Origin: Halobacterium rubrum
GTDB taxonomy: Archaea; Halobacteriota; Halobacteria; Halobacteriales; Halobacteriaceae
Reading direction: 5' to 3'
DNA: 64,000 nucleotides
NCBI RefSeq assembly: GCF_021729015.1
Contig: NZ_JAJQQZ010000005.1
Span: 1-64,000 of the forward strand
Every line of letters starts with the position of its first letter. The first letter of the stretch is position 1. The position numbers were made by a program, and so were the translations under genes. Positions 16,753 to 55,401 of this stretch are shown piece by piece. Under the pieces are notes generated by a model. The model had not been told where the DNA came from and ran no database searches. It saw only the letters and a list, made by a program, of their open reading frames with translations.

Positions 16753-17424
16753 ATGACGGATTCACAGTCATCCGCTGGCGACAGCGGGCACGATCAGCCG
16801 GAAGAATCGGCAGATGAACAGCACGGCAACAGCGACAGCGACGACCGCGCAGACCTCAAACAGGTCGCGGAGGTCGTCCAACGAGTCCAGAACGGCATCG
16901 ACGACCTGGAGCCCGAGGTCTCCATCGACCTGTTCAAGCGCCTGGACCACCTCGAAGGCGCCGCCGAAGCCATCGAGGACTGGGCCGACGACGCCGAAGA
17001 CGACGACCTGGACGCCATCGCCGGCGCCCAGGCTATCGTCGACGCCGAGCAGACCCGCGTAGGACTGCTCCGCGAGAAGGCCCCCGACGGCCGCGGCGAA
17101 CTGCTCCGGAAGTTCGAGACCCTCGAGGACTCCCTCGAGGACCTGGAGGACACCGTCGACGCGTTCACGTTCACCACCAACGCGTACATCGTGTACGTGA
17201 ATCAGCAATTCGTGGGCCGCTACACCAACGACCAGGTCGACGTCGAGACCATCCTCCGTGACGCGGGGAAGAAGAGCCCCGAGGAACTCGGCCTGTTCCC
17301 CCTGGACGGCTTCCGCGGCTCCCGCCAGACCGACCAGGCGTTCCCGGCCAACGAGACGCTCGACCTCGACGGACCCAACCGAACCCACTTCGAGTCCACC
17401 AGCGACGGTGGGAAGATCGCATGA
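16753..17424 (+). CDS. Ubiquitin-like (multiubiquitin-family) protein
   Basis: A 223-residue very acidic protein. Residues 1-30 are disordered and 30-130 helical. From about residue 140 it has a beta-grasp-like domain (AYIVYVNQQFVGRYTNDQVDV, then ETILRDAGKKSPEELGLFPL) resembling the prokaryotic multiubiquitin family. The end ...STSDGGKIA carries a Gly-Gly followed by three residues, as expected of a Ub-like precursor that a JAB peptidase trims to GG. The next two genes encode the E2-like and JAB-E1 partners, with ATGA overlap. The start is ATG 16753, chosen over GTG 16729. Confidence 0.7.
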   Translation: MTDSQSSAGDSGHDQPEESADEQHGNSDSDDRADLKQVAEVVQRVQNGIDDLEPEVSIDLFKRLDHLEGAAEAIEDWADDAEDDDLDAIAGAQAIVDAEQTRVGLLREKAPDGRGELLRKFETLEDSLEDLEDTVDAFTFTTNAYIVYVNQQFVGRYTNDQVDVETILRDAGKKSPEELGLFPLDGFRGSRQTDQAFPANETLDLDGPNRTHFESTSDGGKIA

Positions 17425-17897
17425 GCGAAGCCGCTCCCCGGGATTCCGACGACACGGACGCGACCGCCCTCCGCGCCGAGCTCACGGAGCAGTGTCGAGA
17501 CGCCATCGACGCGCTCCAGGAGGTCCGTCCTGAAGCAGAGCTCATCGCTGTTCGCGGTGACTGGGCCTGGGTCAGCATCGGCAACGTCCGTCCCGCGCAC
17601 GTCAACGACGTGTTCGACGAGGAGAAGGCCCATGCGGTCATCCGCATCCCGACGGACTTCCCAACCGGCAGGCGACCGTACGGCATCATCACGATTCCGT
17701 ACGTCACCAAGCACGGCGGGCAGACTGTCGACAGTGAACACCGGAACCACCAGAAGGCCGAAGCAGTCGAAGACGCGCTGGGCGTCGACGACACCGGCAT
17801 GTGGAGCTACCAGTGGCAAGACATCAGCTGGATGGAACCCGAAGACCTGACGAAGGCCCTGGAAATCGTCCGGTCGCGGTTCGAGAAGGAGGACTGA
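17421..17897 (+). CDS. Prokaryotic E2-like protein (family E type), Cys-poor
   Basis: A 158-residue protein overlapping the Ub-like gene by 4 bases. It has the UBC-like core of prokaryotic E2 family E (AVIRIPTDFPTGRRPYGIIT and a C-terminal helix SWMEPEDLTKALEIVRSRF). The only cysteine is Cys25 near the N-terminus; none lies in the expected active-site region, and the WSRH-type motif is replaced by WSYQWQD. It may be non-catalytic, use another mechanism, or act as an adaptor for the Ub-like protein. The family call rests on fold pattern and operon context. Confidence 0.6.
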   Translation: MSEAAPRDSDDTDATALRAELTEQCRDAIDALQEVRPEAELIAVRGDWAWVSIGNVRPAHVNDVFDEEKAHAVIRIPTDFPTGRRPYGIITIPYVTKHGGQTVDSEHRNHQKAEAVEDALGVDDTGMWSYQWQDISWMEPEDLTKALEIVRSRFEKED

Positions 17898-17900
17898 ACC

Positions 17901-19589
17901 GTGCCTGACGGAACACCCGCTGATTGGCTCCAAGCCGCCGACGCCGACGAGGTGCATCTGGCGTTCCCGCGGGAGGTCTACGAGGACCTCCTGTCGGTGC
18001 TGTTCCCCGACGAGAGCCACCCGTTCCACGGGATGGGCGAGCGCGGCGCGTTCGCCGTGCTCGCGAAGAGCACCGGCGCCAGCCGCGTCACCTACATCGT
18101 CGAAGACGTGGTGCATCCCGAGTCCAGCGACGACCTCAGCCTGAACCGTGGGTCGACGTCCGGCGACTCTGTCGGGGAGTCGACCCGAGGTGGTTTCATC
18201 GGGTCGCTGTTCGGGGGTAACTCTGACAGCGACATCGCGGGCAGCGACTCGATGCTCGGCTACCAGTTCAGCGAGGACTACCACGAACGCGCCATCGAGC
18301 GCGCACAGGAGCGCGGCGGCGGCCTCCTCCGGGTTCACACCCAGCCTGGTGGCGTGACGGCGAGCTCCATCGACACGGAGTCCGCGGCCCGCGTCTACAA
18401 GGCGGATGCAAGCCGGCTACCGCCGGACGCCCCGTTCGGCGCGGCGATCACGAACAGCGACGACGACTGGACGATGCGCGTCTACGAGCCAACTCGCGAC
18501 AGCGACGAGCCGACAGTCACACACGCCGACGCCGTCCGAATTGTTGGCCCGACCCACGACAGACCACCGTTCGAGAAGCGGCCCACGGGCAGCGGGTTCA
18601 CAGGCGGGAACGCGGTGAACGCCGAGGAGCAGGACTCCACCATCCAGTTGTGGGGCGCCGACGGCCAGGCGGTCCTCAGCGAGCTCACGGTTGGCGTCGT
18701 CGGCTGCGGCGGCGTCGGGTCAGTTCTCGCCGAAGACCTCGCCCGACTCGGCGTCGGGGAGCTGGTGTTCGTCGACTTCGACCGCCTGGAGCGCGCAAAC
18801 TTCAACCGCGCGCAGGGCGCCCAGCGAATCGAGGTCGAGCAGGAGCGGCTCAAGACGAGAGTGGCCGAACGCGTCGCCCACGAGAGCGCGACGGCCGAGT
18901 CGTTCGCGACCCGTGTCGTAGACGGTAGCGTCGTCGAGGACGACCCGGAGTACATGGCAGTCCCGGAGCTCCTGGACTGCGACATCATCCTCTCGGGTGT
19001 CGACGCTGCTCGCCCTCGGCAGGTCTTGGGGGCGCTCGCTCGCGCCCACTCCATTCCGGTCATCGACGGCGGAAGCCGTCTCCACGCCGCCGACGACGGC
19101 GTGCTGGAGCCGGAAGCGAAGGTCGAAACCGCAGTCGCGGGCCCGGGCTGGCCGTGTTTCGAGTGCCAGCGCGTGTGGCGCCAGGAGGATGTCGACTGGG
19201 AGAGCGACCACCCCGAGTTCCGGGGTGAACGCGGCTACGTCGACGGTGGTGTCGACCCCGACGAGGAGGACCGGGACCCGTCGGTAATCGGAGTGAACAA
19301 GATCGTGGCCGGCCTCATGCAGCGCCGACTGTTCGGCGTGGTCCTTGGCGTCGTCGACGGCGTAGAGTCGACGCTCCGACTCCGTCTGAAGGATGTCGAC
19401 ACCTACTGGAGCACGAAGTGGGGCTGCGAGCCGGACTGTGGTGCGCCCCGTGTCGGTGTCGGGGATCGCGAGCAGTTGCCGACCGGGACGGACTGGGCGA
19501 TGCGGTACGAGCGCGACGACATCGAGATGCCGGAGCTGAAGACTCAGGACGCTAGCGGCCTCGTCGACGACGACCTGCTCGGCGAGTAA
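17901..19589 (+). CDS. JAB peptidase-E1 (ThiF) fusion protein
   Basis: A 562-residue two-domain protein starting at GTG 17901. The N-terminal JAB/JAMM-like domain (about 1-200) has the Glu (GERGAFAVL) and the segment HTQPGGVTASSID. The usual HxHP...SxxD has Gln for the second His. The C-terminal E1 domain (about 250-530) has the nucleotide loop VGVVGCGGVGSVLAEDL, the acidic VDFDRLERANFNR motif, and zinc Cys pairs CFEC and CEPDC. It should adenylate the Ub-like partner and perhaps process its GG-KIA end. A degraded second E1 lies at 20985. Confidence 0.8.
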   Translation: MPDGTPADWLQAADADEVHLAFPREVYEDLLSVLFPDESHPFHGMGERGAFAVLAKSTGASRVTYIVEDVVHPESSDDLSLNRGSTSGDSVGESTRGGFIGSLFGGNSDSDIAGSDSMLGYQFSEDYHERAIERAQERGGGLLRVHTQPGGVTASSIDTESAARVYKADASRLPPDAPFGAAITNSDDDWTMRVYEPTRDSDEPTVTHADAVRIVGPTHDRPPFEKRPTGSGFTGGNAVNAEEQDSTIQLWGADGQAVLSELTVGVVGCGGVGSVLAEDLARLGVGELVFVDFDRLERANFNRAQGAQRIEVEQERLKTRVAERVAHESATAESFATRVVDGSVVEDDPEYMAVPELLDCDIILSGVDAARPRQVLGALARAHSIPVIDGGSRLHAADDGVLEPEAKVETAVAGPGWPCFECQRVWRQEDVDWESDHPEFRGERGYVDGGVDPDEEDRDPSVIGVNKIVAGLMQRRLFGVVLGVVDGVESTLRLRLKDVDTYWSTKWGCEPDCGAPRVGVGDREQLPTGTDWAMRYERDDIEMPELKTQDASGLVDDDLLGE

Positions 19590-19645: not shown

Positions 19646-20710
19646 CTAGACGAGCGCGCTAAGGGCGAGCAGTCCAGCATACGGCACACCTATCCACTTG
19701 AGACGGTAGGTGATCTTCCACCGGTACACATCCCAGACATCCTTCTCAAAGTGATGCGGTTCAATGCTCCCGTCAAACTGCCTCCACACCCACTGCGTAA
19801 CCCCAGCAACACTCCAGCGAATCGTATACGCAAGCAACATTGCAACCACGAGCAAGAGAGTCCTCGTCATCCACGACTCCCACCCAATTGTAGAGAGTGG
19901 ATCTATTGAGGACAACCACGGAGACACCCTTGAGAGGTTGCGTATCGATAGATACGATAGCCCAAGAAAGATTCCAAGAGTTCCAAGCGTTCGCCAGAAG
20001 AAATGCACGAAGCGGTAAGGGCTCTTGAATAAGACCCATTCCTTTCGGTTGACGGCCTCTCGAGTCACTCCGAGCTTCGCTCCTTTCCAAGTCCCCGATA
20101 TTTGTGCTTCTTCAGTGCGTGTAGTGATATTCTGGGGCGCTCGGGAATTTTCCGTGGTACGCAAAGCTTCACGGGGCGTTTCGTCATCGTTGTCAAGAAC
20201 TAGTCCGGCGCACGGTTCACAAAGCGGGACGCATTTTTCGCCGGGTGGGGTCCCGTTTAGCTTTGAGGAGTCGAAGTTCGGGTAGACGAGGAGTGAGTTC
20301 CCGTCATTAGGAGTGTGGTTACATCGTCTACAGCGGTCTCGAAGCCCCTGAAAGAACTCGTAGATGGTTTCGCCTTCCGTGTCCGTGTTAACGAATGCAA
20401 CACTACTCTGGGCCTCTGGTGAGGGATAGATGCGGGCGCGGGTTCTGTGTTGGTCGAAGTTCTCATTGTCGGGGTGTTGGACGCCGTGACAGGGTCGGCA
20501 GAGCGTAACGAGATTTTCCTTCTCATCCCCTCCGCCCCGAGATTTCCATGTGATGTGATGCACATCGAGGATACGCCCATCTTCATCGGCGTGTGGCCCA
20601 CTCTTCTCCCCACACCGTTGGCACGTCCAGTCGTCGCGTTTCCGCACTTCAGCCGCAAGCGAATCCCACTCGGGGCCGTAACGACTGGCCTCGCTCATCG
20701 AGCCACTCAT
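19646..20710 (-). CDS. HNH endonuclease-domain membrane protein
   Basis: A 354-residue protein. The N-terminal HNH nuclease (about residues 10-80) shows WTCQRCGEKSG, then LDVHHITWKSRGG and ENLVTLCRPCH. A second Cys-rich region (CRRCN... CVPLCEPC) follows at about 130-180. Two hydrophobic regions (about 240-265 and 280-310) plus a hydrophobic end suggest membrane attachment. A nuclease joined to membrane segments is typical of defence-type effectors, but this is inference. A TATA-like TTTTTTAG lies 25 bases before ATG 20710. Confidence 0.7.
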   Translation of the reverse strand: MSGSMSEASRYGPEWDSLAAEVRKRDDWTCQRCGEKSGPHADEDGRILDVHHITWKSRGGGDEKENLVTLCRPCHGVQHPDNENFDQHRTRARIYPSPEAQSSVAFVNTDTEGETIYEFFQGLRDRCRRCNHTPNDGNSLLVYPNFDSSKLNGTPPGEKCVPLCEPCAGLVLDNDDETPREALRTTENSRAPQNITTRTEEAQISGTWKGAKLGVTREAVNRKEWVLFKSPYRFVHFFWRTLGTLGIFLGLSYLSIRNLSRVSPWLSSIDPLSTIGWESWMTRTLLLVVAMLLAYTIRWSVAGVTQWVWRQFDGSIEPHHFEKDVWDVYRWKITYRLKWIGVPYAGLLALSALV

Positions 20711-20803: not shown

Positions 20804-20990
20804 CTACTCTGTAGTGAGCGTAGTCGTGATCTCGTAGCTCAGTTGCAGCTGTGTCGTACTCAAAACCTCGGCCAGCTCGGGCGTCATGTCGGGGTTGGCC
20901 AGCGCCTTCTCTTTCGCTCGCCGGTCCTGACGGGCGTGCTCGCAGGCGGTCAGGAACGCGGCGGTCTTCGTGTTCTCGTCGAGCGCGACG
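20804..20990 (-). pseudogene. 3' remnant of an unknown gene
   Basis: The minus-strand frame ends with KTAAFLTACEHARQDRRAKE followed by KALANPDMTPELAEVLSTTQ, a plausible helical coding end. Upstream it runs into the E1 pseudogene on the other strand, so two truncated genes are fused tail-to-body near 20985. This marks a deletion junction. Confidence 0.45.
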
Positions 20991-21633
20991 ACGACGACGA
21001 CTACGCCGGTCTGGGCGCAGTCATAGACTGCGACGTGATCCTGAGCGCGGCGGACCCGCACTGGGTCCAGAAGGTCATCGACCGGCTGGCGTACGCCCAC
21101 CTCATTCCGGTCATCTCCGGCGGGACGCACCTCCGCGTCGACGAGGCGAGCGACGAGCTCAGTTCGAGCGCACGGTCCACGGTCGAGACCGCAGGCCCCG
21201 GCCTGGCGTGCCTCCACTGTCTCGAGGCGTGGAAGGAGGGGACCTAGAAGCGGGAGTCGTGCGCGACCGAAAGCCGCCGAAGAACCGCGCGGACAACGGC
21301 GGGCTCTACGTCCAGCAGGAGCCTGGCGAGGCCGTCGACGGCAGCGACGAGCTGCGTGATCCGAGCGTCGTGACGACGAACGGGCTGGTGGCGTCGCTGA
21401 TGATGGAGCGGTTCCAGGCGCTCGCCCTGGGCACGTCAACGTCGACGTTCGCAGGCCGGCAGATGTACCGGCCGAGCAGTGGCGAGATGCAGTGGCTGAC
21501 GGCGAACGGCGACCGCCGCACCACCTGCAAGGACGGCTGCAAGAAGACCCAGACGGTCGGTCTCGGCGACTACGTCGACCTGGACACCGGCCAGGACCAC
21601 GACCTCCGCGTCGAGAACCCCGACGCCCGCTGA
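20985..21633 (+). pseudogene. E1 (ThiF)-like pseudogene, truncated and frameshifted
   Basis: The frame reads GAVIDCDVILSAADPHWVQK, then IPVISGGTHLRVDE and CLHC, matching the middle of the E1 domain at 17901 (DCDIILSGVDAARPRQV...IPVIDGGSRLHAAD...CFEC). After a frameshift near 21235 it continues ELRDPSVVTTNGLVASLMME and ends with a CKDGC pair. The nucleotide loop and JAB half are missing. It diverges from the intact copy, so it is the remnant of a second Ub-like system rather than a recent duplicate. Confidence 0.75.
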
Positions 21634-24208: not shown

Positions 24209-24664
24209 ATGACCACGCTTCGGGAAGGGCTCGTTCTCGAGGAGGTGGAGGAAAACCTCTACCTCGGGAACCGGCTCGCCGCGGTCCGCCAGGAACACGA
24301 CCACCGGTTCGAGTACGTCGTCACCGTGTCCCGGGACCGCGAGCCCATGACCACAGCCTACTATCCGATGCGGGACGGCCAGGGCAACGACCCGGAGGCG
24401 TTCGCAGAGGCTGTCAAGTCCGCGCGCTACTACTACCGATCCCCCGGGAAGGTGCTCGTTCACTGCGAGGCGGGAATCTCCCGCAGCACCACAGTCATCG
24501 CGACGGTTCTCGTCGCCGAGAAGCAGGCCCGGTCGTTCGCGCACGCCGTCGAGCAGGTCCGCGAGGTCCGGCCTGACGCGCGACCGGCAGATGCGCTCAT
24601 CGACGCCGCCGAGCAGTACCTCGGGACGACCGTCGACCGGAGTGCCATCCGGGCCGCTGAATAG
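24209..24664 (+). CDS. Dual-specificity protein phosphatase
   Basis: A 151-residue cysteine-based phosphatase. The P-loop HCEAGISRSTTVIATVL (HCx5R, near residue 85) is intact. An upstream Asp in YPMRDGQGND is the probable general acid. An N-terminal ENLYLGNRLAA is the DSP start motif. It would dephosphorylate Tyr/Ser/Thr or other phosphates. The element context suggests host or element signalling; the target is unknown. Confidence 0.8.
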   Translation: MTTLREGLVLEEVEENLYLGNRLAAVRQEHDHRFEYVVTVSRDREPMTTAYYPMRDGQGNDPEAFAEAVKSARYYYRSPGKVLVHCEAGISRSTTVIATVLVAEKQARSFAHAVEQVREVRPDARPADALIDAAEQYLGTTVDRSAIRAAE

Positions 24665-46238: not shown

Positions 46239-47351
46239 ATGGCAGAACACCACCCAGACAGAGCGATTCTCAGCGAGAACGACAAGCAGCAAGTCGTCCC
46301 AATCCTCGGGATAGCGATTGCCGAAGGAAAATTCGTCGCCGGATGTGTGCTCGTCGGCCTGGTCCTCCAGTCGTTCGCCGGCGGTGGCATCCTCTTCTAC
46401 CCGATAGTCGGGGGGAGCCTGTTCGTGGCTCTGACCGCAGTCTACGCGAGCCCGAGCCACGTCCTCACCTACCGGTTCCTACAGGACGTGGCGGACTACC
46501 TCTGGCGTCCCTCCCGTCTCTTCGCGGCGAGCTCCGAGGCGCCGAGGAACATGAAGAACGAGGGGGGTCTCGCGAATTACACCCCGTTCGAGCCGGACAC
46601 CACCACGCAGGACCTGACGAACATCAAGCAGGCGTGGACTGGGGCTGGAGCGGTCCTTCGGAGCGACAATCGTCTGGAGGCCGTTGTGGAGCTGCAAGCG
46701 GACAATATGGACTTCGCTCAGGCGCAGGAATGGGCGAGCCGCCAGGAGATAGGGCAGGAGTTCGCGAACAAGAGCCTAGACGGCTCGCTCAAGTTCGCTG
46801 GAACGACGGAGTCCTTCGAGATCGACGACGTCGTGAATCGGTTGGAGGACCGTCTGAATGACCCCGAAATTCGGGAATCGCCGACCAAACGGGCGTTGCT
46901 GGAAGAATACCGCCAGCGCCGGCCAGAAGAAATCGAGGACCGCGGAACCCAGACTGTCCGCTCCTTCCTGATCGTGACGGTGAAAAAGAAGGAAGTGACG
47001 GACAACTACCAGGGGGAGCCAGGGCCGGCAGAGAAGCTGGGTCGTATCCCTCTACTCGGGCGGCTGTTCTCCCCGTTCACGACCACTACCAGAGACCTCA
47101 CCGAGCAGGAACTGCATGGGGAGATGCTGGACGAACTGGACCGTCGAGTCCACGAGGAGATTATGACTGAGTTCGTCCAGAAGATGCCGGGATTCTCGGC
47201 ACGGCGTCTGAGCACGCTCGAGATGTTCACTCTGAACGCCCGGTTCTGGAACGGGAACAAGCCGGTCTACGACGACCTGGAGGACGTTGTGTCGAATCAG
47301 GCCGTGAAAGCACGTCAGCGGCGCGGTCAGCGCGGGGGTGGTGCAGAATGA
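46239..47351 (+). CDS. PrgI/VirB3-like membrane protein
   Basis: A 370-residue protein. Two adjacent N-terminal membrane helices (about 30-70) after a charged start resemble PrgI/VirB3, and the following soluble part resembles the N-terminal domain of VirB4-type ATPases. The domain may have been split from the ATPase encoded next (overlap ATGA at 47348). This arrangement, VirB3 and VirB4 N-domain fused, is inferred from position and topology. Confidence 0.5.
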   Translation: MAEHHPDRAILSENDKQQVVPILGIAIAEGKFVAGCVLVGLVLQSFAGGGILFYPIVGGSLFVALTAVYASPSHVLTYRFLQDVADYLWRPSRLFAASSEAPRNMKNEGGLANYTPFEPDTTTQDLTNIKQAWTGAGAVLRSDNRLEAVVELQADNMDFAQAQEWASRQEIGQEFANKSLDGSLKFAGTTESFEIDDVVNRLEDRLNDPEIRESPTKRALLEEYRQRRPEEIEDRGTQTVRSFLIVTVKKKEVTDNYQGEPGPAEKLGRIPLLGRLFSPFTTTTRDLTEQELHGEMLDELDRRVHEEIMTEFVQKMPGFSARRLSTLEMFTLNARFWNGNKPVYDDLEDVVSNQAVKARQRRGQRGGGAE

Positions 47352-49633
47352 GTGTCCCGCTCTCGTTGCCAGGACCGCGGGTCGGACCCGAGATTCCGCC
47401 GGGCCTCTGGAACACGATCTTCGGGGCGCTACCCGGTGTCGAACCAGTCACCGGTCCGACTCCGCTTCCGGCTGTCGCGATTCTCGGTGCCGTCCTCGCC
47501 GGAGCCATCGTGATCCAGGGCTACAGATGGGTGAGCGGTCCTAGCCCCGATGGAGACGAAGAAGTCCGGGAAGCGACGCTATCGGGGATGCTCCAGGAGG
47601 AAAACCGTCGGAGTGGTGCAGAGGCGGAGGCTGGCTCTACTCTCGGAGAGGAGGTGGGGCCGGGGGACACGAACGCCGGCGCCGGGGAAACGTTCGCGGA
47701 CATTTCCGAGGACCACAACGACCTGATGGCGGCCGCCGGCGTCGACGAAAGTCTCCGTCACGTCGAAATGGCGGGCGAGTACGTCAAAGTCCTCCACGTC
47801 CAGGGGAGCAGAGACGAGCCGACTGACGGGTTCCTCAGCCCCCTCTGGGAGCTCACCGACGCCCGGTTCGACTTTACGGCATACGTCAACGAGAAGAACC
47901 AAAACCGCGCTCGAGAGAACCTCCGCGACCGCGCCGACGACCTGCGAGTCGACGCGGATTCGGAAGACTCGTCGCGAGCGTACCACCTCCAGAAGGAGGC
48001 AGACTGGGCCCAACAGGTCCACGAAGCGGCCGAGAGTGGAACCACCGTGTTCGACCTCTCTGTCTGGGTCACAGTCCGTGGTGACTCGCTGGAGGAACTC
48101 GAGGAGAACGAGCGGAAGGTTCGGAAGGCACTGCGAGAGTACCCGGCATCGGTCGTCCCGAAAACCCCCATCGGGAAGCAACTCCCCGCGCTTCAGAGCG
48201 CGGCGCCGCTCGGACAGGACGAGCTCGGTGAGCGCGACCCGAAATACTACAATCTGCAGGCGATGGCGGGTGGCATCGGCGCGATGCTCGGGTCGCCCAC
48301 GAACCCGACGTTCACCGAATCGTCTGGTATCGAAGTCGGGAAGCACAAGTCGACTCAGACACCGGTCATCGTCGACCCGACCGAGCGTGAGAACGGCCAT
48401 GCGTGGTTCGTGATTGCGGACGTCGGCTCCGGGAAGTCCGTCAACGGGAAGACGGTGTTCCAGCGGCTCATCACGCAACGTCAGGACACGCAGGGTGTCG
48501 TCCTAGAACCGCTAGGAAACTGGAAGGGGACAGCCGATGCGCTCGATGCTGAGCACGTCGTGATCGGCGGCGATAAGGGCATCAACCCGATGGAGATTCG
48601 GCCGACTCCCGAGCGAGTCCGTCGGAACATGGCCGCCGGTGAGACACCGCTCGCCAGTAAGAAGGAGGGCGTCATCTCGTTCTTCAAGAACTTCTTTGCG
48701 ATGCGGGGGCTGGACAACCAGTTCGCGGAACGCCGGGCCGTGTTCGAGAGTAGTGTCGCTGACGCCTATGACGCAGCCGGAATCACCGAGGAGTTAGACA
48801 CCCACGGTCGGGACAGCCCTACGATTCAGGGCGAACTCCGGGAGGCGCTCAGAGACCGCGAGCAGAATCCCCACGACTACGCGGAGTCCGAAAATCGTGC
48901 GGAGAAGCTCAAAGACGACTCGTCGTGGCTGCTCAGTAACCTCAAGCCGTTCATGGAGGACGGCCAGTACGAGAACCTTGGCCGCGAGAGCGAAATCGAC
49001 CTCCACGGCAGCGAGACCGTGTATCTCGATCTCGGTCAGTCAGAAGGCGAGGTCTCAGAGAAGGCCGCCCTCACGATGCAGTTGCTCGTGCTGGAGGTCT
49101 ACGAGATGGCAAAGCAGACGGACGACTGGCTGGTGTTCGCGATGGACGAGTTCAGGTACATCCTGCGGGACGCCGCGAACCTCGAGTTCATGGAGACGCT
49201 GTTCCGTCACCACCGCCACCAAGGCATCATCCCGATTCTGATGACGCAGACTGTCGACGAGTTCCTCGAGCATCGTGAATCCGAGGCCATCCTGGACCAG
49301 TGTACGATCAAGCAATTCCTGGCTCTGGACGGGATGGACAAGGAAATTGCCGAGGAGTTCCGCCTGAACAGCGCCCAGGCGAAGTTCGTCGGGCAGGAAG
49401 CGGAACCGGGCAGCGAATCGCTGGGGTACGCTGACTCGCTACTCGGCATCGACGGAGACTGGAGGCAGGTCGAAGTCCACACGCTCCCAGAAGAACACAA
49501 GGTCGTCGACCGCGAGGACGATGCAGACGAGCCGCTACCAGGCGAAGAGCCCACGGACGTCGGTACAGCCTCGCAGCGCGACGACCGAGCGGCCACGGTA
49601 GAGACCGACGGCGGCCGGGAGGTGTCCGACTGA
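47348..49633 (+). CDS. VirB4-like conjugation ATPase
   Basis: A 761-residue HerA/FtsK-superfamily ATPase. A membrane helix lies near residues 38-57. Walker A HAWFVIADVGSGKSVNGKT is near residue 355-375 and Walker B DDWLVFAMDEFRYILRD near 595. The sensor-like segment HHRHQGIIPILMTQTVDEFL follows, as in VirB4/TraC. It should energise T4SS assembly and substrate transfer. Start and stop overlap the neighbours. Confidence 0.8.
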   Translation: MSVPLSLPGPRVGPEIPPGLWNTIFGALPGVEPVTGPTPLPAVAILGAVLAGAIVIQGYRWVSGPSPDGDEEVREATLSGMLQEENRRSGAEAEAGSTLGEEVGPGDTNAGAGETFADISEDHNDLMAAAGVDESLRHVEMAGEYVKVLHVQGSRDEPTDGFLSPLWELTDARFDFTAYVNEKNQNRARENLRDRADDLRVDADSEDSSRAYHLQKEADWAQQVHEAAESGTTVFDLSVWVTVRGDSLEELEENERKVRKALREYPASVVPKTPIGKQLPALQSAAPLGQDELGERDPKYYNLQAMAGGIGAMLGSPTNPTFTESSGIEVGKHKSTQTPVIVDPTERENGHAWFVIADVGSGKSVNGKTVFQRLITQRQDTQGVVLEPLGNWKGTADALDAEHVVIGGDKGINPMEIRPTPERVRRNMAAGETPLASKKEGVISFFKNFFAMRGLDNQFAERRAVFESSVADAYDAAGITEELDTHGRDSPTIQGELREALRDREQNPHDYAESENRAEKLKDDSSWLLSNLKPFMEDGQYENLGRESEIDLHGSETVYLDLGQSEGEVSEKAALTMQLLVLEVYEMAKQTDDWLVFAMDEFRYILRDAANLEFMETLFRHHRHQGIIPILMTQTVDEFLEHRESEAILDQCTIKQFLALDGMDKEIAEEFRLNSAQAKFVGQEAEPGSESLGYADSLLGIDGDWRQVEVHTLPEEHKVVDREDDADEPLPGEEPTDVGTASQRDDRAATVETDGGREVSD

Positions 49634-51201
49634 TGGCGGACCTCGGCAGTGGTGATGTTCGCGAGAAACTGGTGGGCTTGTTCACGGACAAGACCGCAGC
49701 GTATCCGGCACGAGAGCTCACCGGCGAGGACTACGAGGCGTATCAGACGGCTATCTCGGAGTTCCAGGCCGACGATGGACCGCTCCTGAACGTCCGGCCG
49801 CCCCGGGAAAACGACCATATCAACGCTGGTATCGACCTCTTGGAGACGATTCACCAGCCGAACGCCGAGCGGGTTGGTGTTCCATCGAACCTGCTGACTC
49901 AGCTTGTGGGGTTAGACCGGCTGGCCGGCATCCAGACGAACCCCGAAACCCATGCTCACGAAATTTGGTATGAGGATTCGAAGGTTCAGTTCTTCTACCG
50001 CCCGCAGTCCGACATTTCCGGCGACCAGTTCCGGCGCCAGATACGGAACAGCTACAAGAATGCCGACGTCAGTGAGTCGGCCAAGCCGTTCCCGGATCTC
50101 TACGAGGGGGACTACGTCGCGGCTGCCACTCTGGACCTGAAACGGCCTTTCTACTACCCCATCAAGAGCGAGCTGACCACCAACCACGGTGGCGAGGAGT
50201 TCGAACGCGACCCGTACGCGGACATCACCTCCGACATGGTCGTCGAGGAAGACACCACCTCGGACGGCCACCGCGTCACCGGCGACGAATGTACGGTGAT
50301 GATCCAGACGCTGTTCGAGGCCGCTCGCGACGTCTGGAGTAAGCAACGCCCTTGGGGGAAAGACGTCGACACAGTCGCCCATCAGGTCAAAGAGGGGCGG
50401 CTTAAGGGGAACATGGTCAAAGGCTACCGGATGCAGGATTCGGGGTCGAAGGACAAGACCGCGGCCAAGATCATCGAGAAGCAGCGGGGGATGAAAGGCT
50501 ACTACGCGACCGTTCGCGTCGTCGGGTTCAGTCCCTACAAAGAGATTGCAGAGCGGCGTGTCCGGACCATCGCGACGGACATGGAGAAATACTACAACTC
50601 GTTCACGGAACAAGGCCTTGAGCCGTCTCGAGTCCCTCCCAAGGACATCGTCGACGTACTGTCGTCGACGGTGAAGCGAGAACACTCCATCGGCGTTACC
50701 GACCGGTACTCGGGGGACAAGTTCCTCCAGCCTGTCGCCGCCTTGGGTGGCCTCGCTCACCTCCCGAACGCTGACATCAACACGCCTGCAGTCGATTGGG
50801 CGAAGCAAGAATCCGGCGCAGGGGTGCCGGCCGACTCCACCCAGTTCGAGGAAATCAAGCACGGCGACGAGGAGGACGACAGCCGCCGGGCCTGGAAGAC
50901 TGCGAACGAGGGTGGCAACCGGCCGGAGCATATGTCCGGAACCACACCGCCAGGCACTGACTCCCGTGACAACAACGGCGAGCAAGAGAACGACGTCGAC
51001 GGAGACGGCGCCGACGGAGATGGCGACGAGGCGAGTGACGACCAGGCCTTCGGCGGGGACAACGCCATCGAGGAGAACCAGGGAGAAGGAGAGGTCGACG
51101 ACGAGGATTCGGTGTCAGAAGCCGACGATACCAGTGAGGACGACGACTGGATGCAGCCGGAAACGCCGCCGAAAGACTCGCCCCGGCGGGGAGGCCGATA
51201 G
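49633..51201 (+). CDS. T4SS-associated protein with acidic tail
   Basis: A 522-residue soluble protein. The first 390 residues are mixed alpha/beta (LTQLVGLDRLAGIQTNPETH, FYRPQSDISGDQFRRQIRNS) and may correspond to the N-domain of a HerA-type ATPase without the motor. The last 130 residues are Asp/Glu-rich and disordered. It lies between the VirB4 and VirD4 genes with ATG overlap (TGATG). It could link the two ATPases; no family was recognised. Confidence 0.5.
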   Translation: MADLGSGDVREKLVGLFTDKTAAYPARELTGEDYEAYQTAISEFQADDGPLLNVRPPRENDHINAGIDLLETIHQPNAERVGVPSNLLTQLVGLDRLAGIQTNPETHAHEIWYEDSKVQFFYRPQSDISGDQFRRQIRNSYKNADVSESAKPFPDLYEGDYVAAATLDLKRPFYYPIKSELTTNHGGEEFERDPYADITSDMVVEEDTTSDGHRVTGDECTVMIQTLFEAARDVWSKQRPWGKDVDTVAHQVKEGRLKGNMVKGYRMQDSGSKDKTAAKIIEKQRGMKGYYATVRVVGFSPYKEIAERRVRTIATDMEKYYNSFTEQGLEPSRVPPKDIVDVLSSTVKREHSIGVTDRYSGDKFLQPVAALGGLAHLPNADINTPAVDWAKQESGAGVPADSTQFEEIKHGDEEDDSRRAWKTANEGGNRPEHMSGTTPPGTDSRDNNGEQENDVDGDGADGDGDEASDDQAFGGDNAIEENQGEGEVDDEDSVSEADDTSEDDDWMQPETPPKDSPRRGGR

Positions 51202-54200
51202 ATGAGGCTGAGAGACAAGCTCGGGTTTGGCGGCGGCTCAGAAGACGAACTCGCGATGGTTTCGCTCACCGAGGACGAGCTCGCGGACCTCCGGGGCCGA
51301 GTGAACGAACTGAGTCTCGAGATCAAGGGAAAGCGGTTCCCCGCAGAGGTGAACCGGACAGCTAGCCAGAAGGTCGAGCAGATCGCGCACTCGGCGGCGG
51401 AAGTCACATCGGCCGAGCTTCCATACCCTGACCCGGCGCAAAATCCCCGGACAGAAGACCTCGCTGCCGCTCTGAACAACCTCGCCGGGTCACTCGTTCC
51501 GGAGGTAGTTCGTGACTCGGTCTCCGAGCGGGAAGTTGAGCAGTTCCAGCACCACGTCGACGATACTCTCGCTCTCGTTCGGGACGCAGAGGAGCTGGAC
51601 CACGTCATCCACGAGTTCGACGTCATCACGAAGTATCAAAAGGACCTCCAGGCGGACGCCGAACGCACTGACCTAGACCGCGACGAAGTTCCCCCTGGGG
51701 ACCGGGAAGACATCTACGCGGGCCCTCGTGTTCGCGAGAAGTTCGACAAAGCAGCGGAGAACCCCGACTGTCCGCTCTGGGTCGGGACCGGGACTCGTAC
51801 CGGCCGAGACGCGAGCATCGAGAAACACCACCTGCGCCGCCACCAGGGCGTCTTCGGGATCACTGGCCACGGCAAGAGTACGTACCTGACGAACGCAGCG
51901 TACCAACTCGCACGTGCCGGCAGCGGCCTCTGCTTCATCGACCCGAAGGGTGACGACTCCGAGCGCCTCATGGAAATCCTCCCGGAAGACCGGATAGACG
52001 ATGTCGTCTGGCTGGAACCCGGGGGAAGCCACGAGTACATCTCCGGCTTCAACTTCATCAACGTCGGTCTAGACCCCGACGACCCGAACTTCGACACTGC
52101 GCTCTCGGCGCTCATCGAGGACCTCGTCGCCCTGCTCGGCGCAGGCGACTACTGGGGGCCCCGGATGGACCGCGTGTTCCGCACGCTCGTTCGCGCCATG
52201 AACGAGTACAACCGCCGGTTCCCCGAGAAGCGAGACCTCAATCTGGTGGACCTGTATTATGTCTTGAAGTCCCCAGAGTCCCGCCACGAGTTCCACTACC
52301 GAATCAAGTCCGCGGGCATCCACTTCGTCGAGGATTATCTTGAGGACATCGCTGAATTCGACGACGGCGATCTGGAGCCGCTCCTTGGTCGGTTCCAGCA
52401 GTGGGTTCAGGACCGCATGGCCCGCCGGATGATTGGCTTCCGGGACTCCGACGTGAACATCCAGAAGGTCGTGGAGGAGGGCAAAATCCTCATCGTCCGG
52501 ATGGGCGGCCAGCCGAAGGAGCTCAAGCGGATGCTCGGCATGGCGGTCCTCCGGCGTATCTGGTCGACCATCCGCTCGCGTGCCGAAATGGACGAGTGGG
52601 AGCGCGACCAGTTCTACACCTTTGTCGACGAGTTCGACAACATCGCGAAGACGGGCGAGGCGATCCCGACGATGCTCTCCGAGTCTCGGAGTCTTGGGAT
52701 GGGGCTGACCTTCTGTTGTCAGTACCCGAGCCAACTCCCCGAGGACATCGTGGACGCCATGATGGTGAACTGCGACACGATGCTGTCGTTCAACCCCGGT
52801 TCGAAAAAACAGGCGCGTATCATCGGGCCGAAAATCGGGAAGGACTCACAGCCGCTGTTGGACGAGTCGCCATTCCACCTCTGGATGCGTATTACTATCG
52901 ACGAGACGAACGAACGCAGCGACCCATTCCGGGTCTACACGCACCCACCATATCCCCCGCGTCGGGGTCGCGAGGAGCGCGACGCCGAAATCATGCGGAG
53001 TCTCGAGAAGTACGGGAAGCCGGAACCCACGGACTCCGAGGAGAAACGCGCCCTACTCTACAACAGGGGGAACGGCCCCTGGGAGTCCGGTCTCGGGAGA
53101 GACCTCGTCCAGGCGATTTCCGAAGGGGAAGACCCCCTTATCGAGATCGCGAAACAGGAGCTTCGGCAGGCCTACCAAGACGGCGAGCTCGTCACTGGCG
53201 AACCAAATTTGAGCACGTCGAAGGGGGACGAGGCCAGCCCTTCCCAGTCACAGTCTCTGTCTGCAACGGGAGCTGGAGGCGAGGACGAGCCGACTGATGC
53301 AGAGCGCCTCGCAGAGGACTACCAGACGGACATCTTCGAGTCTATCTGGGCAGCGCGTTTGCAGGCCGGGCTCGAGCCCGGTGAGACCGTGCCCTACGAG
53401 GCAGCGGAGCAAGAGATCGAGCGTCGTCTCGGCGACACTGGCTACCTCTCGCAACTCTCAAACGCCATCGAGAAGCTACCAGGCGACCACGTCATCCGGG
53501 AACGGAACGATGGAGAGCTCCACCTTGGCCTGACCGCGCGTGGTCGAGGCGAAGTGACGCACCAAGACACCGGTAGTTCCGGGTCTGGCGGTGGCGAAGA
53601 CCATCGGTGGGTCCTCAGTCAGGTGTTCGTCGCGTTCACGCGCCTTGGCTACCTCACCACCCTCCCCGAGCAGGAAGGTGAGGAACAGCCAGACGGACTC
53701 TCGAAAGCCCCGATTGACGTCACCGACGTCGACGACGACCTCTCACCGAACGAGATGATGGCGGCGATGGAGGACCGCCGAGAGGAACTTCGAGAGGAGT
53801 ATCCCGGCGTCTGGAATCTCGCCGGCGCCGACAACGTCAGCATCGAGGCTGAAACGAGCACGTTCACGTACCCGTTCCAGACGTTCCGGAACCTCGGGAA
53901 AGCGATGGAGAGCGGCGACCTCTGTGTGTTCGCGACGAAAGACGGCCGCGCAGATCATGGAGACTTCGGCCACTACGGCCGGCGCCTTGAACAGGTCCTC
54001 TATGACACGACCGGCCCCCTCCGTGGCGGCAACAAGACCATCCACCACGACCGGTTGACGCTGATGAAGCACCGCGACGACCAGGACCGAGAGCGGTTCT
54101 ATACGCAGGGGTCACACTACAAGGTCGACGACGGGTCGAAGGCCTTGCGGCCGCGGCGTGACGACCAGTACGATTCGACGGCTTGGTATCGGGACCCCGG

Positions 54201-55401
54201 AACCGACGAAATCGTCGCGTGCTACTCGAAGTCCGGGTCCATCCCCGGAGATGGGGAGTTCGCCCGGTTCGAGGACGTCGACGACGTCGTCGACAACGGC
54301 CGGACGAGTGTGCCGGCGTACTACGAGTACGACCAGTCCGACGGCGAGTACGTCGTCTACACGGCTGAGGGCGACAAGAATTTCTACCCATCCGAGGAAG
54401 AACTCGAGGACGAATGGGAGCGGTTCAACAAGCCGTACATCCCGGAGGCCGACCTGCCTGAGATGCCCTCGGAGGACGACTTCCTCATCGTCATCTTCCC
54501 CGACGACGATAACCCTCAGTACGATCAACCGCAGGTCTACGAAGGCGGAGAAACCACGCCGCTGTTCGAGTACACCGATGTCAACCTGGACATGCCCGAG
54601 CTCGGCGAGACAGCCGCGCCGACAAGGGGCGACAACCAGGACGCGGAGGACCCGCCCGAGGCGGCCGAGTCCACGGAGGTCGAGGAACCCACCGACGGTC
54701 AGTCGATGGACGTCGTAGAGAATCGGCTCTCGCCGGGGGCGCTGTCCGCGAAGACGATGGTCGACGAGGACCTCTGCGCGGACATCCTCCAGGGGACGTA
54801 CAAGCCGCGGAGAGAGCACCGCGAAGGCCTCCGGAAGGCCCTCAAGGCACTCCGCCCCCAGGATGCGTCATCCGAGGACCTGCCTCCCGTGTTCAACGAG
54901 CCGTGGTTCAAGCGAGAGGAGGCAATGAACAGTCCGGCAGCCCCTTCCGCTGACGCCGCCGACACCGACGAAGTCGGTCCGGATAGCGACGAGGAAGACA
55001 CCACGAGTGCCGACCAGAGTGACAGTAGTGAGGAGCCCGCAGCGGACACGGGCAACGAAACTTCCCCGACCACGACCGAGTCGCTTGAGGATAGCGACGC
55101 AGGCCCTGGAGTGTCGCTCGCTGAAGCTCGTGCGGTCGCTGGGGAGGAAGAACACACTCCGAAGCATCGAGACTCCTTGGACGAAGTCGTCGACCCTGGG
55201 TCTACACCCCGGGAGAGACACCAGGCGGAGACAGATGCGGATACGCCTGAGGAGACAACCGGTTCCGAGGCACCGTCGCGCCCGACAGAGGAAGACACCA
55301 TCGACGAGGACCAGAAGCAGGCTGCAGGTGCAGCGACCGAGGACGAGACGGAAGAGGACCAGTCTGGCGCTGAGGACTCGTTCTTCGAACGCTACAACTA
55401 G
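51202..55401 (+). CDS. VirD4/TraG-like coupling ATPase, very long
   Basis: A 1399-residue protein. The motor domain (about 210-600) has Walker A GVFGITGHGKSTYLTNAAY, then LCFIDPKGDDSERLMEIL, Walker B QFYTFVDEFDNIAKTGEAIP and sensor MGLTFCCQYPSQLP, all typical of TraD/VirD4/HerA coupling proteins. The remaining 700 residues are unusual: a mixed domain up to about 1100 and an acidic disordered tail. No N-terminal membrane helix is visible, unlike classic VirD4. It should deliver the DNA-protein substrate to the T4SS. Confidence 0.8.
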   Translation: MRLRDKLGFGGGSEDELAMVSLTEDELADLRGRVNELSLEIKGKRFPAEVNRTASQKVEQIAHSAAEVTSAELPYPDPAQNPRTEDLAAALNNLAGSLVPEVVRDSVSEREVEQFQHHVDDTLALVRDAEELDHVIHEFDVITKYQKDLQADAERTDLDRDEVPPGDREDIYAGPRVREKFDKAAENPDCPLWVGTGTRTGRDASIEKHHLRRHQGVFGITGHGKSTYLTNAAYQLARAGSGLCFIDPKGDDSERLMEILPEDRIDDVVWLEPGGSHEYISGFNFINVGLDPDDPNFDTALSALIEDLVALLGAGDYWGPRMDRVFRTLVRAMNEYNRRFPEKRDLNLVDLYYVLKSPESRHEFHYRIKSAGIHFVEDYLEDIAEFDDGDLEPLLGRFQQWVQDRMARRMIGFRDSDVNIQKVVEEGKILIVRMGGQPKELKRMLGMAVLRRIWSTIRSRAEMDEWERDQFYTFVDEFDNIAKTGEAIPTMLSESRSLGMGLTFCCQYPSQLPEDIVDAMMVNCDTMLSFNPGSKKQARIIGPKIGKDSQPLLDESPFHLWMRITIDETNERSDPFRVYTHPPYPPRRGREERDAEIMRSLEKYGKPEPTDSEEKRALLYNRGNGPWESGLGRDLVQAISEGEDPLIEIAKQELRQAYQDGELVTGEPNLSTSKGDEASPSQSQSLSATGAGGEDEPTDAERLAEDYQTDIFESIWAARLQAGLEPGETVPYEAAEQEIERRLGDTGYLSQLSNAIEKLPGDHVIRERNDGELHLGLTARGRGEVTHQDTGSSGSGGGEDHRWVLSQVFVAFTRLGYLTTLPEQEGEEQPDGLSKAPIDVTDVDDDLSPNEMMAAMEDRREELREEYPGVWNLAGADNVSIEAETSTFTYPFQTFRNLGKAMESGDLCVFATKDGRADHGDFGHYGRRLEQVLYDTTGPLRGGNKTIHHDRLTLMKHRDDQDRERFYTQGSHYKVDDGSKALRPRRDDQYDSTAWYRDPGTDEIVACYSKSGSIPGDGEFARFEDVDDVVDNGRTSVPAYYEYDQSDGEYVVYTAEGDKNFYPSEEELEDEWERFNKPYIPEADLPEMPSEDDFLIVIFPDDDNPQYDQPQVYEGGETTPLFEYTDVNLDMPELGETAAPTRGDNQDAEDPPEAAESTEVEEPTDGQSMDVVENRLSPGALSAKTMVDEDLCADILQGTYKPRREHREGLRKALKALRPQDASSEDLPPVFNEPWFKREEAMNSPAAPSADAADTDEVGPDSDEEDTTSADQSDSSEEPAADTGNETSPTTTESLEDSDAGPGVSLAEARAVAGEEEHTPKHRDSLDEVVDPGSTPRERHQAETDADTPEETTGSEAPSRPTEEDTIDEDQKQAAGAATEDETEEDQSGAEDSFFERYN

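Follow-up and report, generated by a model that had tools for sequence, protein, structure and literature searches.

Three tightly packed genes lie on the forward strand at positions 16753-19589 of the window, a stretch of 64,000 nt that forms the start of a 169-kb contig in the 3.07-Mb, seven-contig genome of Halobacterium rubrum. The genes code for a ubiquitin-like protein (Ubl), an E2-like protein and a fusion of a JAB domain with an E1 (JAB-E1), and their open reading frames were confirmed at the coordinates listed in Table 1. The initial annotation described all three genes as overlapping. This is the case for the Ubl and E2 genes, which overlap in an ATGA, but the E2 and JAB-E1 genes are 3 bases apart. 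The E1 part of the fusion is recognised by the Pfam ThiF model (E = 4e-24). The Ubl and the E2-like protein had no relevant match among the Pfam, NCBIfam and PADLOC models; their identity is backed by synteny in 16 genomes and by profile-profile matches of the multiubiquitin and Prok-E2_E type. The earlier description of the locus as an operon of a type known from bacteria, with Ubl, E2 and JAB-E1 genes, is borne out. Purifying selection acts on every gene of the operon in close orthologues, which excludes a chance origin of the open reading frames.

Table 1. Features of the conjugation operon and its neighborhood, in window coordinates
Feature	Position	Strand	Remarks
Ubl	16753..17424	+	223 aa; ends ESTSDGGKIA; hhalign to multiubiquitin profile, AF2 topology (low confidence)
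E2-like protein	17421..17897	+	158 aa; UBC-type topology; without catalytic Cys; invariant Ser129
Ser129 codon of the E2-like gene	17805-17807	+	
JAB-E1 fusion	17901..19589	+	562 aa; GTG start; Pfam ThiF, BubCD alignment
Domains of JAB-E1			JAB, ~residues 17-235 (E47, H146, Q148, D158); ThiF-type adenylating E1, ~245-540
HTQP codons (JAB-E1 residues 146-149)	18336..18347	+	Gln148 in place of the second zinc-binding His
Decayed JAB-E1 remnant, Halopiger type	20843..21633	+	residues 325-552, ~80% identity, two frames

The operon is probably located on a mobile, plasmid-like replicon, in line with its earlier assignment to a mobile element. Large proteins with weak matches to TraC/TraG-type ATPases are encoded at positions 47348-55401, 28-35 kb from the operon, and suggest a conjugation apparatus on the same replicon. 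The genome was found to contain no intact second copy of an operon gene. The only other JAB-E1 copy is the decayed remnant, which follows the intact operon at a distance of 1.3 kb. The remnant belongs to another subfamily, and this spot has therefore received such systems at least twice. An HNH endonuclease-like protein (19646-20710, reverse strand; Pfam HNH, 7e-10) is encoded between the intact operon and the remnant, and further downstream, past the remnant, lies the gene of a dual-specificity protein phosphatase (24209-24664; Pfam DSPc, 1.6e-12).

A genome search gave strong JAB-E1 matches in 16 of 391 halobacterial genomes, at 17 loci, and weak, mostly E1-only matches in nine further genomes. 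The same three-gene order was found in 16 of the 391 sampled genomes, and a search with the E2 profile returned exactly the 16 genomes of the strong JAB-E1 set, the E2 gene always adjoining that of the E1. The JAB-E1 proteins are 72-73% identical to the window protein at three loci, those of its close orthologues, and ~36-44% identical at the rest. Many of the haloarchaeal loci are on small contigs or on named plasmids, the latter belonging to Halorarius, Halopiger, Halorussus, Haloarcula, Natribaculum, Haloplanus and halophilic archaeon DL31. One Halobacterium genome carries two different operons, one with the HTQP motif in its JAB domain (see below) on the largest contig and one of the HTHP type on a plasmid.

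A first scan of genome contigs returned nothing, and a second, with an alignment as the query, returned Thermoplasmata and bacterial relatives. The JAB-E1 relative from a Thermoplasmata metagenome-assembled genome (MAG) groups with the haloarchaeal set on the tree and is preceded by Ubl and E2-like frames; the archaeal branch is therefore not confined to haloarchaea. On that contig (5032-7296) the Ubl ends with GGGGFS, the E2 contains YYSWSW, and the JAB-E1 follows in the same gene order. Bacterial plasmids carry the operon with the same gene order and overlaps, annotated as multiubiquitin, E2/UBC and ThiF, with or without DUF6527, and the bacterial Ubl and E2 members score on Pfam Multi_ubiq and Prok-E2_E. 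The DUF6527 gene occurs in none of 145 halobacterial genomes. In Bub and type 6e operons, a DUF6527 or metal-binding accessory gene is frequent but not defining, none being listed beside the three-gene units of Acidiphilium and Clavibacter. No relatives were found in phage and viral collections. The plasmid location and the presence in few genomes fit the setting of a mobile defence or stress module. Bub operons, the bacterial systems discussed below, have been linked to stress-induced immune regulators, although protection against phage had not been shown (PMC13373217).

The Ubl consists of an N-terminal helical bundle (residues ~28-142), a β-grasp domain (~145-217) and the tail STSDGGKIA, so that the original reading of its end, GG followed by KIA, agrees with the translation. 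All nine residues of this tail are identical in the four Ubls of the clade formed by the window protein and its three close orthologues, even though these proteins are just ~50-70% identical. The relatives have two more residues after the GG than the KIA found here. The helical bundle (window positions 16834-17178) is missing from several haloarchaeal relatives. The haloarchaeal Ubl profile matched the multiubiquitin profile in hhalign with a probability of 93.6% (E = 2e-7). The Ubl and the E2-like protein were modeled with AF2 from alignments of few rows, which left out the haloarchaeal relatives from the genome search. The Ubl model, of low confidence (mean pLDDT ~61), has the helical N-terminal bundle and the β-grasp order of elements. 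A Foldseek search with it was swamped by helix-bundle matches and gave no useful match for the β-grasp part. By profile, the protein is an adjacent multiubiquitin-type β-grasp Ubl with a Gly and then a short tail, a trait of the bacterial Bub (type 6e) Ubl conjugation operons.

The E2-like protein contains a single cysteine, Cys25, and none in the catalytic region, as had been noted from the translation. The interpretation that the E2 active site is altered in this particular operon did not survive the comparison, however, because the absence of the cysteine is the rule across the whole family. Cys25 takes the place of no canonical active-site cysteine: it lies in the N-terminal helix, is shared by no proteins beyond the four closest orthologues, and is replaced by Phe, Leu or Ile in more distant relatives. 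A conserved catalytic cysteine elsewhere in the E2 homologs was sought and none was found, and a hidden one was rejected, since no cysteine column is conserved outside the clade. Ser129, in contrast, is the sole invariant residue besides Met1 among 15 archaeal and bacterial E2s (89 gap-free columns), three of which are bacterial. In hhalign, the haloarchaeal E2 profile matched the bacterial Prok-E2_E profile (94.9%, E = 4e-8) with Ser129 on the serine of WSRH. The profile of the 15 E2s, with its three bacterial rows, found Citrobacter BubB in the Protein Data Bank (E = 6e-7), serine being aligned to serine, and the BubB serine is at the expected place of the active site. The profile made from haloarchaea only had no match in the same database. 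An adjacent E2-like protein that lacks the catalytic cysteine and has a conserved serine in a WSxx motif is a further trait of Bub and type 6e operons.

The AF2 model of the E2-like protein is also of low confidence (pLDDT 61) and has the UBC order of elements. Its VIA-align matches are weak and are mostly to E2, RWD and UEV chains. The superposition on BubB (Z 5.6, rmsd 4.2, 107 residues) gives values at which a shared arrangement is possible. Since the lack of the cysteine is a family trait, Ser129 is the candidate nucleophile, and a serine-oxyester mechanism is the likeliest one to be deduced for this E2. The initial annotation had left the choice between attachment by the E1 alone and a different E2 chemistry. 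The latter is favored over the former, because the family has an invariant Ser129 where Prok-E2_E proteins and BubB have a serine. In work of 2026 by Ye et al., Bub enzymes reportedly act through acyl intermediates on conserved serines. The invariance of Ser129 could nevertheless reflect a structural role instead. In a rival reading, the E2-like protein is a catalytically dead adaptor of the UBC/RWD type that only binds the Ubl or the substrate, with the E1, alone or together with an unlinked factor, transferring the Ubl from the adenylate as in SAMPylation. Such an adaptor would account for the missing cysteine, on which ground the E2s of type 6e operons were considered inactive by Iyer et al. 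2006 (PMC1779556), and for the weak structural matches, which are not confined to active E2s but extend to RWD and UEV domains; archaeal SAMP conjugation, moreover, has been described without any E2. We nevertheless consider it unlikely, because a bare adaptor would not be expected to have conserved a single residue, a serine that aligns with that of BubB, unchanged in archaea as well as in several bacterial phyla, and because the E2 gene always accompanies that of the E1.

In the alignment, the E1 half of JAB-E1 keeps GxGGxGS, Asp292 and Asp294, Asn300 and Arg303, Lys318, Asp361 and the zinc cysteines. The window protein has no crossover-loop catalytic cysteine between its two zinc pairs, so that this candidate was rejected. 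Ser461, in the crossover-loop region, is invariant in 15 haloarchaeal proteins and is present in Citrobacter BubCD, but it is not universal, being Ala or Val in several bacteria. BubCD is the nearest solved relative of JAB-E1. Both domains align with it in the same order, the JAB domain being fused N-terminally to a ThiF-type E1 as is typical of Bub and type 6e operons. The match to the NCBIfam model SAMPActivE1UbaA is distant (E = 1e-8), with 34.7 bits against a cut-off of 450 bits. The ThiF/MoeB-type zinc cysteines and the lack of a crossover-loop cysteine would also suit a sulfur-carrier system of the MoeB/ThiF kind, in which the Ubl would become a thiocarboxylate and would not be conjugated to proteins. 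This is highly improbable, because conservation is limited to the three genes as a unit, because sulfur transfer requires neither a fused JAB domain nor an E2-like partner, and because the protein of known structure closest to JAB-E1 belongs to Bub.

The JAB domain retains Glu47, His146, Pro149 and Asp158, whereas the second zinc-binding histidine is replaced by Gln148. The HTQP sequence reported earlier is thus confirmed at residues 146-149, and the domain departs in this one residue from the pattern of active JAMM/MPN+ proteins (Glu and HxHP-x(n)-SxxD). A sequencing error or a lone mutation was rejected, as the same glutamine is present in the 72-73% identical orthologs; histidine was seen in the other relatives inspected, haloarchaeal and bacterial alike. 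In the tree the window protein and its three orthologs form a fully supported clade, the sister of which keeps HTHGP. Gln148, being limited to this four-member clade, is therefore derived and most simply arose once. The dN/dS ratios (Nei-Gojobori) are well below 1 in JAB, E1, E2 and Ubl, with dS near saturation, and approach 1 only in the short linker, in one pair. Relaxed selection on the JAB domain is thus not seen, with the same reservation about dS, and the domain has therefore been kept for some purpose.

In JAMM enzymes the zinc is bound directly by the second histidine of HxHP, and loss of this histidine normally marks the inactive MPN- proteins. Because this ligand has been lost, the HTQP-type JAB domain is probably weak, inactive or regulatory. 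There is a realistic, if lesser, chance that it is still an active zinc peptidase, its metal coordination being completed by Gln148 or a water molecule, and that it performs both the maturation and the removal of the Ubl, as the domain would in other members. This concerns the JAB step only and is compatible with the Bub reading of the operon. The four retained residues and the low dN/dS of the JAB region agree with such activity, and the identity of STSDGGKIA in the four otherwise divergent Ubls would be expected if the tail were still cut precisely. What speaks against it, besides the usual consequence of losing the ligand, is that the change from His to Gln arose once, on the branch leading to the HTQP clade. 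Two further JAB proteins, in which the HSHP motif is intact, are encoded by the host genome, so that removal of the Ubl tail in trans is possible. A more tentative proposal is that the fused domain of the HTQP clade is a zinc-less pseudo-peptidase, whose sole role would be to bring the Ubl tail into position for the E1; the invariant GG-KIA precursor would be matured in trans, by a JAMM protein encoded on the host chromosome. A mobile conjugation system of this kind would depend on, or sense, the SAMP-processing enzymes of its host, and would work wholly without catalytic cysteines.

With good confidence, we assign the operon to the bacterial Bub (type 6e) pathway, as an archaeal branch in which the Ubl is probably held on Ser129 as an oxyester, because the nearest solved relative of JAB-E1 is BubCD and because bacterial plasmids carry the same operon. 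In the proposed pathway, the residues after the GG (KIA, or those of the relatives) would be removed first. In most relatives this would be done by the fused JAB domain and in the HTQP clade perhaps by one of the two other JAB proteins of the host. The E1 half, judging by its aligned adenylation residues, would then adenylate the glycine at the C-terminus of the matured Ubl. The Ubl would be passed to the E2, where it would probably be held as an oxyester on Ser129 and not as a cysteine thioester, and would go from there to a substrate.

Archaea outside a few lineages had long been regarded as devoid of an E2, a view stated in 2010, and the description of SAMP tagging in haloarchaea did not include one; later, an E1/E2/E3 cascade was reported in an uncultured archaeon (PMC5654768). 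No description of Bub in haloarchaea was found in the literature searched, which did not extend to the published list of Bub operons. If the interpretation is correct, Bub is present in two domains of life, with an E1-E2-Ubl cascade that is based on serine and carried by plasmids in haloarchaea that are easy to grow, and ubiquitin-type transfer need not use thioesters. The HTQP clade is then a natural test of a built-in deconjugase losing its zinc site.

The haloarchaeal operon can be compared with several known systems. Bil and the type II CBASS proteins Cap2/Cap3 likewise combine a prokaryotic E1, an E2 and a JAB-type peptidase, but their E2s use a cysteine, whereas there is none at the E2 site of the haloarchaeal operon. 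Haloarchaeal SAMPylation (SAMP, UbaA, HvJAMM) occurs in the same host group and also employs a Ubl ending with GG, a ThiF-type E1 and a JAMM peptidase. However, SAMP has no dedicated E2, its system is not a JAB-E1 operon, and UbaA is just a distant match. The type 6e operons of Iyer et al. 2006 (PMC1779556) have the Ubl, the Cys-less E2/RWD-like protein and the JAB domain fused to the E1, but were described from bacteria only, with an extra metal-binding protein and an E2 called inactive. The closest system is Bub (BubA, BubB, BubCD; PDB 9ea4, 9ea5, 9eae, 9eav; Ye et al. 2026, doi 10.1038/s41594-025-01696-1). The present operon differs from it in its archaeal host, in a Ubl and an E2 that are too diverged for Pfam, in the helical N-terminal extension of the Ubl, in the absence of DUF6527 and in the HTQP motif of the window clade. 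Both share a Ubl, a Cys-less E2 with a conserved serine, the JAB-E1 fusion, the adenylation residues of the E1, an HxHP JAB domain in most archaeal members, and a frequent location on mobile replicons.
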